From positions 62,001-126,000 of the forward strand of contig NZ_JACNMS010000006.1 of the NCBI RefSeq assembly GCF_020595125.1: DNA of 64,000 bases, given 5' to 3'. The DNA is from Jeotgalibacillus aurantiacus. GTDB lineage: Bacteria > Bacillota > Bacilli > Bacillales > Jeotgalibacillaceae. The notes under the pieces were generated by a model. It did no database searches and was not told where the DNA came from. It saw nothing but the letters and a program-made list of their open reading frames with translations. The stretch's first letter is position 1. Each line of letters opens with the position of its first letter. This document shows, in pieces, positions 7,397 to 62,589 of the stretch. The position numbers were made by a program, and so were the translations under genes.

Positions 7397-7558
7397 ATGG
7401 CGAAACTTGAGCGAGAGCTTTTAATAAAGTTGGCGAGTATGACTGGTGAAAGAGCAAAAATTGATGCAAAGACATTTGACTCTTATATCGTTTACAGGAA
7501 TAGTAAAGGTAAGATTGTAAGAGAATATCCAGATGGAAAAATTGAGTTGAAGGAATAG
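7397..7558 (+). CDS. Small protein upstream of the zeta-toxin-like kinase (possible antitoxin)
   Basis: The 53-residue product begins MAKLERELLIKLAS and ends with a compact beta motif YRNSKGKIVREYPDGKIEL. The start is ATG 7397 behind GAGGAGG. Only 4 bases separate its stop from the next gene, which carries a zeta-type kinase fold. Position and size suggest the antitoxin or regulator of a toxin-antitoxin pair. It is shorter than classical epsilon antitoxins and not similar to them, so this is inference. Confidence 0.65.
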   Translation: MAKLERELLIKLASMTGERAKIDAKTFDSYIVYRNSKGKIVREYPDGKIELKE

Positions 7559-7562
7559 TGTA

Positions 7563-8141
7563 ATGGGATCAGTTGATTTTAACCCAACCATGATTGTATT
7601 TGCTGGGAATAATGGAAGTGGTAAAAGTACTTTTAGAAGCATAATAACTGAAAAACACGGAATTCTACTAAATATTGATCCAGATGCATTAGCAAGAAAA
7701 TACACTGCTAATCCGGAACTAAAAGCAGGTAGAGACTCCATAAAATTAGTTCAAGAGCAAATAATTAGAAGTCAGGATTTTTCTATCGAAACGACTCTGT
7801 CCGGAAATCTTCCACTTAGGCAAATGGAACAAGCTAAAAAAGCTGGTTATGAAATAATCATGTACTATCTTGGAATTGAAAATATAGAAATTAATATTGA
7901 TCGAATTGCATTGCGTGTAAGAAATGGAGGACATCATATACCTACGGAGGATGTACTAAGAAGGAAAGACAGATCTATAAAGAACCTTTTGAAATGCATT
8001 CATTTGGTAGATAGTATATACCTTGTAGATAATACAGATTTTAATGCTCAAATTATTGCTGAGATAGAAAATGGAGAATTAATTTATTTTAAAGAGAATT
8101 CACCCCAATGGATAATACCTATTTTAAGTGAACTAAAATAA
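7563..8141 (+). CDS. Zeta toxin family / predicted P-loop kinase
   Basis: This 192-residue P-loop protein has Walker A FAGNNGSGKST (about residues 14-24), NIDPD (about 37-41), the SIETTLSG segment (about 77-84) and an arginine-rich RIALRVRNGGHHIP region. These are features of the zeta toxin/COG4185 group. Zeta toxins phosphorylate UDP-N-acetylglucosamine; whether this one does is not shown. It lies 4 bases after a 53-residue gene, giving a two-gene module. The pair looks A+T-richer than its neighbours, consistent with transfer, though I have not computed composition. Confidence 0.75.
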   Translation: MGSVDFNPTMIVFAGNNGSGKSTFRSIITEKHGILLNIDPDALARKYTANPELKAGRDSIKLVQEQIIRSQDFSIETTLSGNLPLRQMEQAKKAGYEIIMYYLGIENIEINIDRIALRVRNGGHHIPTEDVLRRKDRSIKNLLKCIHLVDSIYLVDNTDFNAQIIAEIENGELIYFKENSPQWIIPILSELK

Positions 8142-8273
8142 ACGTTCTTTCATGCCTGAATTAACTTACTACTCCGACAATAATAAACCCTATTGTACTG
8201 TGAGCGCTTACCATCCTACACTTATATGTGAATTGAATCACAAAAATTTACATGGATTTCAGGATGGTGAAGG

Positions 8274-9110
8274 ATGGAAACCTCTACGATAGATAAGTTA
8301 TTGGGCGCGGCGGCGATGAAACGCGATTTACTGAGAGAGCAGCCGAATCATTATATCGTGCGTGCGATGCTTGCGGGTATGTATGTAGGAATGGCGGTTG
8401 TGATGGCATTCCGCCTTGCACAGCCTTTTTATGAAGCTGGATCTCCGGCGACATATTTTATCAATGCGATTTTCTTTGGTGTCGCGTTCTGTCTCATTTT
8501 ATATGGGAAAACAGAGCTGTTTACATCTAATACAATGTACATGGTCGTTGGTGCGATGAAGAAAACGACAAACTGGATGGATACGCTGCGCGTTTGGGGT
8601 GCATGTTATCTTGGAAATCTGGTTGGCATTTTATTTTTCACTGGTCTTATTATCATGACCGGTTTGTTTGCCACAATGGATCCGTCTGAATCGTATCTGA
8701 TTACAGCCGCTGAAAAGAAGATGAATCTTCCTTATTCCGAAATGTTTTTCAGAGCTATTTTAGCAAACTGGCTTGTGTGTCTGGCTGTCTGGATTCCGCT
8801 TCAGGTAAAGGATGATATCGCAAAAATTGCACTGATGATTCTGTTTGTATTTACGTTTTTCATTTCAGGCTATGAGCATAGCATTGCCAACATGGCACTG
8901 TTTTCTATTGCATTAACGGCTCCGCATACAGCGCTTGTCACGATGCAGGCTGCGATTGAAAATGTGGTGATCGTGACGCTTGGGAATATTGTCGGTGGTG
9001 CCTTTTTCGTTGGAGTGCTTTACACGTATCTGAACTCTGCTAAAAAAGAAGCAGCTGTTCAGTCTAAAGTGAAAGCATCTTCAGGCGAGCGTACAGCGCT
9101 GGAGAAATAA
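8274..9110 (+). CDS. Formate/nitrite transporter (FNT) family protein
   Basis: This 278-residue membrane protein has about six transmembrane segments. It carries FNT-type motifs: FFGVAFCLILYGKTELFTSN, LGNLVGI, NWLVCLAVW and a GYEHSIANM loop carrying the conserved central histidine region. FNT pentamers conduct formate, nitrite or hydrosulfide; which one cannot be read here. It is a single gene with its own terminator at 9110. Confidence 0.88.
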   Translation: METSTIDKLLGAAAMKRDLLREQPNHYIVRAMLAGMYVGMAVVMAFRLAQPFYEAGSPATYFINAIFFGVAFCLILYGKTELFTSNTMYMVVGAMKKTTNWMDTLRVWGACYLGNLVGILFFTGLIIMTGLFATMDPSESYLITAAEKKMNLPYSEMFFRAILANWLVCLAVWIPLQVKDDIAKIALMILFVFTFFISGYEHSIANMALFSIALTAPHTALVTMQAAIENVVIVTLGNIVGGAFFVGVLYTYLNSAKKEAAVQSKVKASSGERTALEK

Positions 9111-9137
9111 GAGTGGGGATGCCTCACTCTTTTTTTA
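9110..9137 (+). terminator. Intrinsic terminator of the FNT gene
   Basis: AGAGTGGGG pairs with CCTCACTCT around a three-base loop and is followed by seven T. Confidence 0.85.
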
Positions 9138-9218
9138 TATGGGGAAAAGTGATTTTGTTTGCCGCGGATGCAGGCTGATTGATGTCAGATCGTATGGCGT
9201 CGCGTCAAAAAGTAGCGT

Positions 9219-9530
9219 TACAATTATTTTGTGGAACAGTACAATTTTGAATTGAAACAGTACATTTAGTTTGCGGAACACGACAAATAGAGTGCTTGGA
9301 AGGGTCTGCGATACAATTAATTTTTGAAACGATGAATATATAAAGGGAAACAGTACATAAAAAATCTGGAACAGTACATAAACTTCCGCAAACGATACAA
9401 ATCCAAGCAGTCGCACCCGCTCCCCCGCAAACGATACAAATCCAAGCAGTCGCACCCGCTCCCCCGCAAACGATACAAATCCAGGCAGTCGTATCTGCTC
9501 CTCGCAAACGGTACAAATCCCAGCCAGCAA
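9219..9530. repeat. Array C: 21-base-ruler degenerate repeat (AACRGTACA core)
   Basis: The core TACA (in GAACAGTACA or AAACGATACA) occurs at 9219, 9240, 9261, 9282 (as GACA), 9312, 9333 (degenerate), 9354, 9375 and 9396, then 9435, 9474 and 9512. The steps are 21,21,21,30,21,21,21,21, then 39,39,38. The last three long units are near-identical copies starting CGCAAACGATACAAATCC. All three minus-strand frames stay largely open. One reads as CTVPxxx heptads ending in a stop at 9205. No flanking gene explains it. Apart from this array and the terminator, the 600 bases 9138-9736 hold nothing I recognise. Confidence 0.85.
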
Positions 9531-9736
9531 TCCGCCACTACAATCCCGCATCAAATTCATCCAAAATCCAAAAAAACCTCATCCAGCCTGATTGTTCTCC
9601 TCAAATACGGGTATCGTACCTTAAACCCATCAATATCCACAATGAATTTCAGCACTGTTCCTAGCCATACCCCGCAATTGTTTATATAATTTATTACAAC
9701 AGGCTCAATATCCATATCACGGAAAGGAGCACCCTC

Positions 9737-11356
9737 ATGACTTCTATTATTGAAACAGATGTCCTTATCATTGGTGCCGGCCCCGCTGGTCTGATGGCGG
9801 CCAATGAACTGCAAAAACGAAATGTTGATTTTGTATGTCTTGAAAAAAGACCGGGTCCGACAAAGCTGTCAAAGGCGCTTGGGATTCAGGCAAGAACGTT
9901 AGAACTGCTTGAGTTTCTCGGAATTCATAAACAGTTTCTTAAAGAGGGGTATCCTGGCCCGGGGGCGAAGCTTCATTTAGCTGGAGAGAAGCCATCTTAC
10001 GTTGAGTTATTTCATATCAAAAGCCGTTACCCATATTTATTTATTCTTCCTCAAAACGAGATCGAAGCGCTTTTCATAGAGCATCTGGAGAAATCAGGCG
10101 GTTCGATTCAGATGGAGCATGAAGTTGTTGACATGAGCCAGAGCCGTGACGGCATTCTGGTTACGGTCAGCCATAATGGAAGGCAGAAGCAATATGCTGC
10201 AAAGTATGCACTCGCCTGTGACGGCGCACACAGCAGGGTTCGCGACCTTCTCGGCATTGACTTTGTCGGAGAGGATGAAGGTTACACCTTTTTCACCGCG
10301 GACGTTGAGATCCCCGGCTTAAATGAAATATACATTAACATGCACCTGAATGACCGTGGAGCAGTCGCGGTTTTTCCTTATAAAGACGGAAGCTATCGCG
10401 TTGTGGGAATGGACCGTGCGAAACAGGGTCCCCCTTATAAAAAAGAGCTGAAGCTTGAGGAGCTGCAGGAAAGTCTGGACCGGATTCTTGAAGTTCCTTA
10501 CCGCGTGGAAAAGCCGAGATATTTGTCCTCATTCGGTACTGCTCATCGGCAGGTCCGGCGTTACCGGATTGGCAATGTGTTTTTCCTTGGTGACGCGGCC
10601 CATATTAATAATCCGCTTGGTGGTCAGGGGATGAATCTTGGTCTTGAGGATGCCTCTAACCTTTGCTGGAAGATCGATACGGTTTTGAGAGGTTTGACAG
10701 ATGAGTCATTTTTGGACAGTTATAACGACGAACGCTATCCGATTGCACAGGGCGTCATCCGGGATACGACACGTGAGCTGAAAGCCATTGATTTAAAGGG
10801 TCCGGTTGGTTTGGTACGCAACTGGTCAGGAAAAGCAGCGCTTAGTCAAAGCTGGGTGCAGCCGCGAATTGCGAATTACCTGTCTCACATTCATCATGAA
10901 TACCATAAAGTGAAACGCAATAAACTGATGAAAAACACAGGGTTATCCAGAAAAGCCGTTCAGCCGGGGCAGCGCGTTCCTGATCAGAAGCTGTTTTTTG
11001 AAGGGAAGTCATCTGCGAGGCTGTATCAGTTTATTCACAAACATGGATTTGTCTGCCTGATCTATATTGACTGCTATGATGAAAAGCTCATTCATTACGC
11101 ACATTCACTGTCGAAATTGTTCAGTGAATTTTATCCGGGCCTGATCAAAGTATTTCTCGTTGCCAGAGGAGGAACCGTTCAGATAGAGGAAGACCGGTTA
11201 CCGATCATTTATGATGTGCACCGGAATATTGAACGTAACCTTGGCATGGATAAAGGCAATGCATTACTGATCCGTCCGGATGGTCATGTTGCGTTTCACG
11301 ATCATTCTCAGGATGCACAAAAATCACTCGAGATGCTGGAAACATTTTTAAAATAA
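9737..11356 (+). CDS. FAD-dependent aromatic-type monooxygenase
   Basis: This 539-residue class A flavoprotein monooxygenase has the N-terminal motif LIIGAGPAGLMAANEL, the CDGAHSRVRDLLGI (DG) motif about residues 158-171, and the GDAAHINNPLGGQGMNLGLED (GD) segment about 286-306. The C-terminal about 150 residues form a thioredoxin-like tail, as in phenol hydroxylase/PheA-TfdB-type enzymes. It would hydroxylate a phenolic or polyketide-like compound using NAD(P)H and oxygen; substrate unknown. It is a single gene with its own terminator. Confidence 0.85.
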   Translation: MTSIIETDVLIIGAGPAGLMAANELQKRNVDFVCLEKRPGPTKLSKALGIQARTLELLEFLGIHKQFLKEGYPGPGAKLHLAGEKPSYVELFHIKSRYPYLFILPQNEIEALFIEHLEKSGGSIQMEHEVVDMSQSRDGILVTVSHNGRQKQYAAKYALACDGAHSRVRDLLGIDFVGEDEGYTFFTADVEIPGLNEIYINMHLNDRGAVAVFPYKDGSYRVVGMDRAKQGPPYKKELKLEELQESLDRILEVPYRVEKPRYLSSFGTAHRQVRRYRIGNVFFLGDAAHINNPLGGQGMNLGLEDASNLCWKIDTVLRGLTDESFLDSYNDERYPIAQGVIRDTTRELKAIDLKGPVGLVRNWSGKAALSQSWVQPRIANYLSHIHHEYHKVKRNKLMKNTGLSRKAVQPGQRVPDQKLFFEGKSSARLYQFIHKHGFVCLIYIDCYDEKLIHYAHSLSKLFSEFYPGLIKVFLVARGGTVQIEEDRLPIIYDVHRNIERNLGMDKGNALLIRPDGHVAFHDHSQDAQKSLEMLETFLK

Positions 11357-21026: not shown

Positions 21027-21105
21027 GATTTGTGCAGGGGTCACCTCATGAAGGAGGATCACGCGGAAGCGGCTGTGTGGTTTGATTGTGGGGCTGCTCC
21101 GCGGG

Positions 21106-21290
21106 ATTCCATCACTTGAGTGAGAGATTCAATCGTTTCAGAATTTTATTCCATCTTTCTGGGAATTATTTCAGTCTTTTGAGAAATTAATTCCCTCACT
21201 ACCTCAAGCAGCCTCATTTTTTCCATCACAACACCCTGTTAATTCCTTCATTCCTGACCGTCATTCAATCGTTTCAAAATTTAATTCCAT
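21106..21290. repeat. Array B1: 21-base-ruler degenerate repeat (ATTCCATC core)
   Basis: The TTC of the core ATTCMATC lies at 21107, 21128, 21149, 21170, 21191, 21221, 21243, 21264 and 21285. The steps are 21,21,21,21,30,22,21,21. Between cores the sequence is mostly TTTCAGAATTT-like or TTTTGAGAAATT-like. It aligns unit by unit with array B2 at 58112, including the 30-base step. One strand reads IPSFWEL-FQSFEKL-IPSL but is broken by stops. The 430 bases between the genes (20987-21416) otherwise contain only the terminator. Confidence 0.85.
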
Positions 21291-21416
21291 CACTTCCAAT
21301 TCAAGGATCGGGACTTTCATTAGACATCCATCTAACTTGCACACATTGTATGATAAAATATGTAAAAAGAAATTTCAGTATTCTGTTAACAAAGACCAAA
21401 AATGGGGGATAGGGTT

Positions 21417-57998: not shown

Positions 57999-58111
57999 GT
58001 TTTGTTGGAGATTGTTTGACGCGGAGTAGGGCTTGATGGTGAAGGCGGTTGTTTTTCGCGGCAAATAGGGGGTTGGGTGACGGGGGCTGGCTGAGTGGCT
58101 CCCTGGAGGAT

Positions 58112-58335
58112 TTCTTCATTCGGGTGAGTTATTCAGGCTTTTGAAAAATTAATTCCCTCTTTCTGGGGTTTGATTCGTGCTTTTGAAAAAATAATTCCAT
58201 CACTGCGGCTCCCGGTCTCCACTTTTCCTTCACTGCCTTCACTGATTCAATCATTCCCGCACACTGATTCCTTTGTTTCAAAATTTATTTCCATCAAAAC
58301 CACAACCCTCATTCAAGCAAGCCAGGTTTCCTTCA
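58112..58335. repeat. Array B2: 21-base-ruler degenerate repeat (ATTCCATC core)
   Basis: TTC core positions are 58112, 58132, 58153, 58174, 58195, 58225, 58246, 58268, 58289, 58312 and 58332. The steps are 20,21,21,21,30,21,22,21,23,20. The central segment aligns with array B1: both show, in order, an IPSFW unit, a FEK unit, an IPSL unit with a three-codon insertion, and an IQSF unit. The 58170-58418 plus frame is open but has only a TTG start and no site. Of the 505 bases 57957-58461, 58000-58111 hold nothing I can identify. Confidence 0.85.
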
Positions 58336-61644: not shown

Positions 61645-62589
61645 ATGTACCATGAAAAATTAGAAACGATTCTTCATAACATTGAAAAGGTCATGATTGG
61701 AAAAAGAACGGTTGCTGAATTAAGCATTGTGTCGCTTCTGGCGCAGGGGCATATTCTTCTTGAAGATGTTCCGGGTGTCGGAAAAACGATGATGGTTCGT
61801 GCGCTTGCAAAGTCAGTTGGTGCAAAGTTTACCCGCATTCAGTTTACTCCGGATTTACTTCCTTCAGATGTAATTGGTGTATCCATTTATAATCCTAAAG
61901 AGCTTACTTTCCAGTTCCGTCCGGGTCCAATTATGGGAAATATTATTCTGGCGGATGAAATTAACCGTACTTCACCGAAAACACAATCCTCACTGCTTGA
62001 AGGAATGGAAGAGGGCAGTGTGACAGTGGATGGTGTGACGCACAGGCTGGCGAGACCGTTTTTCGTTATGGCGACTCAGAACCCGATTGAGTATGAAGGA
62101 ACCTACCCACTGCCGGAAGCTCAGCTTGACCGTTTCCTCCTCAAAATGAAAATGGGTTATCCAAATGCAAAAGAAGAGCTGGAGGTATTAAATCGAATCC
62201 AGCATTCACCGCCAATTGAAGATCTTGAGCCGGTGATCACGCTTGAGGAGCTTCAGGCTCTCCAGAAAGAAGTAAAAAATATTGTCGTAGATGATAAGAT
62301 TAAACAATACATTGTGGATCTTGCAGGCAGTACACGGGAGCACCCGAACGTGTATTTAGGGGTAAGTCCACGTGGATCCATCGCTTTAATGAAGGCAGCT
62401 CAGGCATATGCGATGCTTCATGGCCGTGATTACGTGATTCCGGATGATATTCAGTTCCTGATCCCATACATTTTCTCACACAGAATGATTTTGAAATCAG
62501 AAGCGAAATATGACGGAATTGAACCGGAGGATGTTATTGAACGGATTGTAGCTAGAACAAGAGTACCTGTTCAGAGAGTGGCGAAATAA
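61645..62589 (+). CDS. MoxR family AAA+ ATPase
   Basis: The 314-residue ATPase has Walker A EDVPGVGKTMMVRAL, Walker B IILADEINRTSPKTQSSLLE, the sensor FVMATQNPIEYEGTYPLPEA and the YLGVSPRGSIALMKAAQAYA lid segment. MoxR proteins act as chaperones that load or assemble partner complexes with VWA/DUF58 proteins. It heads a MoxR-DUF58-transglutaminase operon; the B. subtilis counterpart is the yeaC-yeaD-yebA cluster. ATG 61645 follows TGGGAGGGAA. Confidence 0.92.
   Translation: MYHEKLETILHNIEKVMIGKRTVAELSIVSLLAQGHILLEDVPGVGKTMMVRALAKSVGAKFTRIQFTPDLLPSDVIGVSIYNPKELTFQFRPGPIMGNIILADEINRTSPKTQSSLLEGMEEGSVTVDGVTHRLARPFFVMATQNPIEYEGTYPLPEAQLDRFLLKMKMGYPNAKEELEVLNRIQHSPPIEDLEPVITLEELQALQKEVKNIVVDDKIKQYIVDLAGSTREHPNVYLGVSPRGSIALMKAAQAYAMLHGRDYVIPDDIQFLIPYIFSHRMILKSEAKYDGIEPEDVIERIVARTRVPVQRVAK

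Follow-up and report, generated by a model that had tools for sequence, protein, structure and literature searches.

The intergenic DNA between a formate/nitrite transporter gene and an FAD-binding hydroxylase-like gene of Jeotgalibacillus aurantiacus contains a short tandem repeat, array C, which raises the question of whether it is an ordinary minisatellite or repeat-coding gene in the course of growing, or an element with a fixed plan of its own. The window analysed here is the whole 64,000-nucleotide stretch in which it lies (positions 62001–126000 of contig C6 of the 3.5 Mb genome G000; positions are those of the window unless a contig is given). The cores of the repeat follow one another in 21-base steps with a single 30-base step, up to a core at 9391, beyond which three more follow at 9430, 9469 and 9507, after steps of 39, 39 and 38 bases. 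The features of array C and the other copies in the window are as follows.

9157–9209, no strand assigned: companion inverted repeat TTTGCCGCGGA ... CGCGTCAAA, a second dispersed element adjoining array C.
9205–9516, minus strand: open frame of 103 amino acids, treated as non-coding (null Pfam search; no codon-position pattern).
9214–9297, plus strand: left half, four 21 bp units with the class A core AACRRTACAAT (cores at 9214, 9235, 9256 and 9277; leave-one-out score).
9298–9306, plus strand: 9 bp insert GGAAGGGTC, the source of the 30-base step (198-column matrix plan).
9307–9411, plus strand: right half, five 21 bp units (cores at 9307, 9328, 9349, 9370 and 9391).
9391–9506, plus strand: the last unit together with 18 bases of flank, locally duplicated in tandem in lengths of 39, 39 and 38 bp, with a decayed copy from 9507.
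21098–21293, minus strand: element copy with the class B core AGTGAAGGAAT (model R2, 116.8 bits, this copy being in the R2 training set).
58105–58296, minus strand: element copy of class B (model R2, 116.8 bits, this copy likewise being in the R2 training set).

The repeat is not a product of chance, and the segment from 9214 to 9411 is one copy of a dispersed intergenic element composed of 4 x 21 bp, a 9 bp insert and 5 x 21 bp. Scored with a matrix trained without array C and without its ortholog, this segment reaches 138.8 bits, versus −81.6 bits for the next best plus-strand score in the window and a maximum of −88.6 bits among 1,000 Markov shuffles of its 198 bases; model R1, whose training set included array C, matches 9215–9407 at 123.7 bits. 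With models R1 and R2 the whole window contains this one class A array and the two minus-strand class B arrays. Tandem Repeats Finder reports a 21 bp array at 9219–9280 and a 39 bp array at 9386–9524 (3.6 copies, 91% matches). The latter reflects the segment at 9391–9506, which is a local slippage or duplication product atop the element and the sole local duplication in array C; its first two units are identical, and 8 differences are counted for the third, the shift from its missing base included. A preliminary description of the locus had reported 21-base units and one 30-base step in the left part, which the core positions bear out, and three near-identical 39-base units, of which two are indeed identical 39 bp units and the third is already down to 38 bp, with only a decayed copy beyond it.

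Array C belongs to a large family. A blastn search of its own genome returns 13 places, and the loci, when cut at the core, display the same plan and the same 30-base step. An ungapped matrix of 198 columns (4 x 21 + 9 + 5 x 21) was iterated on examined stretches of G000 and of its sister species, G004, many of which were picked for their blastn matches and are thus not a random sample; it yields 67 matches, 66 of them at 84–193 bits and one at 26 bits (G004:C12:4664, left out of later counts except in the ortholog conservation figures), and on reversed sequence it never rises above −35.7 bits. The arrays form two core classes with one shared plan, AACRRTACAAT in class A and AGTGAAGGAAT in class B, and class models were trained on 42 copies of A and 24 of B. 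With at most the best 150 candidates scored per genome, the window's genome has at least 28 near-full-length class A copies (78 bits or more) and at least 38 of class B (83 bits or more); among the matches listed, a single weak partial one falls on contig C2, whose length is 658,776 bases or more. G000 contig C3 has two tandem copies of an entire class A array, at 94709 and 94955 (246 bp period), versus one copy listed in G004 (C47:100715). We also note that an insertion sequence with two frames, which by eye looks IS3-like, recurs inside or against arrays at four places in two species, one in G000 (L029, contig C1 at ~692 kb) and three in G007 (L164, L160/L263 and L260, at 166, 298 and 2955 kb), and it may target the arrays.

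The sister species G004 has an ortholog of array C that is shorter by exactly one 21 bp unit and by exactly 77 bp, corresponding to a 39 bp and a 38 bp unit, and the locus is otherwise alignable through both flanks. Whole-unit change therefore does happen at this locus, and the change in number of the 39-base units that the preliminary description had set as a test is seen, and it could represent either gain or loss. The transporter gene preceding array C is present in seven of the 11 other genomes of the genus, once as a fragment; in the ~700 bases downstream of it G004 has the array, and the other six species, among them the one with the transporter fragment, have different genes. Because these six downstream regions run into different genes, they represent absence but not a clean empty site, and the lack of class A beside the transporter gene there indicates that arrays also appear, spread or vanish. 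In G007 an array (C1, 912313–912492) lies ~1.3 kb before the ortholog of this transporter gene.

As a family the arrays hold their places between G000 and G004, and 24 orthologous arrays were paired by order and orientation, one pair including the degraded 26-bit match. Their cores have 126 substitutions in 2332 positions (5.4%) and their spacers 300 in 2317 (12.9%), so that core bases change at less than half the spacer rate; the 120 bp flanks, coding ends included, have 13–15%. Along the unit the mean rate is 0.02–0.09 at bases 1–11 and 0.12–0.18 at bases 15–21, with no three-base rhythm in the substitutions of these 24 pairs. Only 10 gap openings fall inside the arrays, versus 124 outside (2 x 120 bases of flank), a figure that is somewhat favourable because the arrays were found with a gapless matrix. 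Such a contrast of core and spacer is what would be expected of a protein-binding array.

These comparisons bear directly on the first reading of array C, as an ordinary minisatellite or a repeat-coding gene, which we consider extremely unlikely. Its right end does vary by whole units between species, and near-identical units in variable number, the mark of a minisatellite, are found at 9391–9506; over 9214–9390 there is one unit fewer in G004, yet the units are not near-identical, and the fixed nine-unit plan recurs at dozens of loci. The proposal that array C captures an array in growth fits the right end (9391–9506) but not the left part, which is the canonical element, found in dozens of places with the same 30-base step. 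Nor are the left units a ladder of ageing copies, since core sequence and spacing are conserved between species, and the supposed gradient of divergence from old units near 9219 to new ones dissolves into position-specific parts of a 4|9|5 element with two core classes.

A coding role can be weighed in the same way. One minus-strand frame of array C is open, a called frame of 100–150 amino acids overlaps 14 of the 66 arrays, and the peptides quoted in the preliminary description agree with the 103-residue open frame. The three open minus-strand frames claimed for 9205–9560 are refuted, with stops numbering 0, 6 and 2; one frame has no stop at all and another none within the array itself, an openness that comes easily with a 21-base period. 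The commonest stop-free frame runs through 23 of 66 arrays, counted on unmasked arrays. Against coding, neither of the two minus-strand open frames of array C has a Pfam match at E<=0.01, the substitutions are without a three-base pattern, and in relatives steps of 19, 20 and 22 bases break the frame; the coding reading was rejected on these grounds. Whatever their function, intergenic repeats of this kind are not to be read as minisatellites or small genes.

Beyond the two sister species, the class B model has weak matches, many of them full length, in G006–G009 and G011, at most 58 bits. Forty-two arrays of five other species were chained with an independent 9-base matrix that allowed steps of 17–32 and favoured 20–22, and 37 of them have four units followed, after a step of 29/30 or 19, by five more (33 precisely so, the other four with an additional odd step at one end). 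The steps in all 42 are of 21 (198), 20 (74), 22 (9), 29/30 (39), 19 (3), 27 (2) and 32 (1) bases. Three arrays, from G011 and G008, have the 19-base variant, in which the step loses 10–11 bases, or one helical turn. Sixteen of the 38 relative arrays tested have a neighbour-gene match in the examined part of G000, and for nine of the 16 a G000 array lies within 1.5 kb of that gene; L160 and L164 match through a transposase gene and so provide no evidence of a shared locus, and the neighbours of L167 and L175 match at 54–57% identity. At G000:C5:111815 both neighbours match for L151 (G007) and L173 (G009), and at G000:C1:589522 they do so for L171 (G009); a class B array is located between matching genes in G000, G007 and G009, and G004 is alignable there. 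With the class A and B models and R3 (a model built from the relatives), no element was detected in five of the 12 genomes of the genus (G001, G002, G003, G005 and G010), which reflects either true absence or another core. Ten weaker G007 matches belong mostly to a second class, GGTGATNGAATT. Two Jeotgalibacillus records, L141 (J. alimentarius YKJ-13, 7450–7585) and L063 (G008, 1502–1660), have an intergenic tandem array with 21 bp units like GAAACACTACARCTGCCAGAC and without the 9 bp insert, at what looks like the corresponding locus.

The dispersal of the family suggests comparison with a fossil non-autonomous mobile repeat (MITE-like) that spread burst by burst, each burst producing one class, and whose copies now merely persist in harmless intergenic places. 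This would account for copies that are dispersed, intergenic and favour convergent gaps, for class A being strong only in the two sister species (among the matches listed) and absent beside the same transporter gene in six others, and for the one tandemly duplicated array (94709/94955). It sits poorly with cores kept twice as well as spacers, with the kept spacing, with one plan for two core classes and with the class B locus common to G000, G004, G007 and G009, and alignments A2 and A3 reveal no terminal inverted repeats by eye. We regard such a fossil as an unlikely explanation, and return to that of a protein-binding array.

Sixty-three of the 66 arrays are placed in gaps, 23 convergent, 32 tandem and 8 divergent, relative to a background of 100, 253 and 103 gaps, respectively. 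Convergent gaps are enriched (p=0.009 vs gap counts) and divergent gaps depleted (p=0.07 vs gap counts, 0.007 vs gap length), with all of these p-values being optimistic because orthologous copies in G000 and G004 are counted separately. On this distribution the arrays are not promoter operators. Their bias towards convergent gaps might also reflect a tolerance of such gaps for insertions. The share of arrays between converging genes (23 of 63, vs 22% of gaps), together with only 8 in divergent gaps, could also point to a transcription-related element at gene ends, with the array serving a protein that blocks or insulates converging transcription. We find this rather improbable: 32 of the 63 arrays lie between tandem genes with no orientation preference (17 vs 15), some neighbouring genes have a hairpin-T terminator of their own (by eye), and it leaves the origin-ward lean described below unexplained.

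Alternatively, the arrays might act as RNA, either as a regulatory RNA or as a sponge in which each unit of a transcribed array binds an RNA-binding protein. The arrays do lie in gaps adjoining genes, and class B units contain GGA, the motif of CsrA-type proteins. Neither class has any predicted conserved pair, however, the core TGACGCAAT of another genus (see below) lacks GGA, the two-turn spacing and the variant shorter by one turn speak against it, and no Rfam family is present over 7500–11000 apart from one sub-threshold match outside the array. A structured RNA family was rejected for want of covarying pairs and of any Rfam match above threshold, and we judge an RNA role of either kind very unlikely.

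The chromosomal distribution can be followed in G007, where a DnaA domain is at base 856 of the 3,516,439-base chromosome. Its 46 matches include 26 strong and 13 weak ones, with two second halves of arrays split by insertion sequences and five matches under 21 bits excluded. Of the 26 arrays of 43 bits or more, the quarter closest to the origin contains 16 and the closest half 21 (Rayleigh p=2.4e-4), and the 13 weaker matches have the same origin-ward lean (p=0.04). Co-orientation with the replication fork in G007 (18 of 26, p=0.076) is not significant. In G291, with dnaA at base 1, three of seven pattern places are in the origin-nearest quarter, too few to judge; the lean is significant in G007 alone, and the sequences of G228 and G258 do not start at dnaA.

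Taken together, direct repeats two helical turns apart, a phase step that is either retained or altered by a whole turn, the lack of RNA structure and coding rhythm, and constraint on the cores argue for a protein that recognises direct repeats and assembles along one face of the DNA. The high copy number and, in one genome, the bias towards the origin hint at a RacA-like part in organising or anchoring the chromosome. The reading that we favour, tentatively and as somewhat short of probable, is that array C is one copy of a chromosome-wide family of protein-docking arrays for a direct-repeat-binding protein that organises or segregates the chromosome; we infer all three of its parts, namely protein binding, its direct-repeat (ParR-like) kind and the role in chromosome organisation. 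Each element would present nine direct-repeat sites (four, a phase step, and five) two helical turns apart, on which a sequence-specific protein could line up on one DNA face and polymerise or wrap the DNA, as ParR does on parC. Bound at dozens of copies, which lean towards the origin in G007, the one closed chromosome with sufficient copies for a test, the protein might serve to anchor the chromosome's origin half, to compact it or to segregate it. A survey of the MerR family for a RacA-like reader has matches in 101 of 101 genomes and is hence uninformative.

Several known systems are similar in some respects. In the account of plasmids pSK41, R1 and pCW3, parC sites are clusters of 10–20 bp direct repeats on which one protein builds a higher-order complex, and repeat sequence and spacing vary between families (PMC9426499). 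The clustered direct repeats at fixed spacing are shared, here as nine 21 bp units with a core of ~11 bp; parC itself sits beside parM on a plasmid, unlike the dozens of chromosomal copies found here. No parM or parR genes are beside array C. The 17 bp ParR-binding repeat of pCW3, AAACATCACAATTTTAC (PMC9426499), resembles the class A unit AAACGATACAATT, a resemblance alone. RacA sites (ram) of Bacillus subtilis are described as many, densest near the origin and anchoring the chromosome (PMC6593407), and numerous origin-dense chromosomal sites are present here also, as shown in G007 only. The STAR elements of Staphylococcus are likewise dispersed intergenic direct repeats, and are described as having no assigned function and as keeping their places within S. 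aureus and not between species, with loci that expand and contract and a 14 bp GC-rich core, T(G/A/T)TGTTG(G/T)GGCCC(C/A), at least 40 bp apart (PMC3532100). They differ from our cores AACRRTACAAT and AGTGAAGGAAT at 21 bp spacing, and the portion of that account available describes neither a nine-site plan nor two-turn spacing for them. The TAACTGA repeats of the Beggiatoaceae are reported as many intergenic direct-repeat sets of 7 bp units, mostly just upstream of start codons and likewise without a named reader (PMC4679880); the arrays here differ in having 21 bp units and in being depleted in divergent gaps.

Similar arrays are found more widely in the order. When eight candidates are scored in each genome, model R3 has matches at E<=1e-5 in 26 of 299 genomes of the order, spread over 14 of 116 genera; the own genus contributes six of the 26. 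Fourteen loci outside the genus were read: 11 are 20–21 bp arrays with cores such as TTGTGACGGGATTA, AATGACGCAAT, TTGACGGGAATA or TTGATAGAATAA, L192 and L212 are long 21 bp tandem runs, and L208 looks like a repeat inside a gene. L192 (G088) and L212 (G218) represent two other families, their runs having cores like AAGTGAWGGAATC, as if they were expanded arrays. In genus g28, exact pairs of TGACGCAAT at a spacing of 20 or 21 number 13, 27, 35 and 22 in four of the six genomes and zero in the other two, and the reversed pattern occurs zero times; the pair pattern is likewise missing from G092, and G081 has one reversed-control match alone. G228 and G291 have three elements with five units, a step of 62–63, and three units. 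When aligned by eye, the cores across families read as TGA-NNN-NAT.

Searches in other records were largely unproductive. Two arrays, one of class A and one from G007, were compared with plasmids and have no match. Viral contigs have 3 and 8 pattern loci, in which R1 finds nothing and R3 has three weak matches at 18–21 bits, a near-identical simple repeat accounting for two. A pattern scan of named genomes returned 73 loci, of which eight were read (L075, L080, L082, L086, L087, L121, L126 and L141): L087 and L126 are G004-type records, L080 has no model match, and rejected were Sporosarcina L075/L121, where the repeat is at the end of an apparent gene, and Nostoc L086 and Flavobacterium L082, which are other tandem repeats by eye. 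A de novo period scan was too noisy for unknown cores and was misled by runs of N. The 1997 B. subtilis genome paper reportedly describes repeats of ~190 bp in about ten copies, of two subfamilies and in the origin half only. No repeat of this type was found in 400 kb of G147, which has a near-identical 16S signature, and no model matches there at E<0.05 (the best R3 match has E 0.077); one 191 bp self-match was read by eye as a coding paralogue pair.

It is possible, although on balance doubtful, that these families are all centromere-like chromosomal arrays, present across the Bacillales with a clade-specific plan (4|5, 5|3 or about five units) and core (TGA-NNN-NAT) and with a reader that co-evolves with them in the manner of incompatibility groups; copies would then switch core together, and some genomes would have two classes. 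No printed description of the element was found in the open-access literature. If the reading holds, a large bacterial order has a level of chromosome organisation that escaped notice because its core differs by clade and ordinary similarity searches fail. Each genome would then supply dozens of existing sites with which to look for the protein, origin-domain architecture could be tested outside Bacillus subtilis, and the arrays would illustrate a joint change of specificity in a DNA-binding protein and dozens of its sites.

The second dispersed element, which adjoins array C at 9157–9209, is an inverted repeat, TTTGmCGCGGA...TTCGCGTCAAA, also found on G000 contig C3 at 119888, 207701, 215965 and 216240. 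The ram site of RacA is a short GC-rich inverted repeat, TGACGCCGGCGTCA, unlike our direct-repeat arrays, and the companion inverted repeat TGACGCG...CGCGTCA beside some arrays presumably resembles ram more than the array does; TGACGC-N0-2-GCGTCA does not occur in the examined stretches of G000 and G004. The arms of the inverted repeat are 37–41 bases apart in 16 of 17 pairs, and 12 of the 17 pairs are within 250 bases of an array start. The half-site TGACGCG/CGCGTCA is located within 130 bases of 21 of the 66 arrays, with orthologs counted separately and an expectation of 0.028 per 260 bases.
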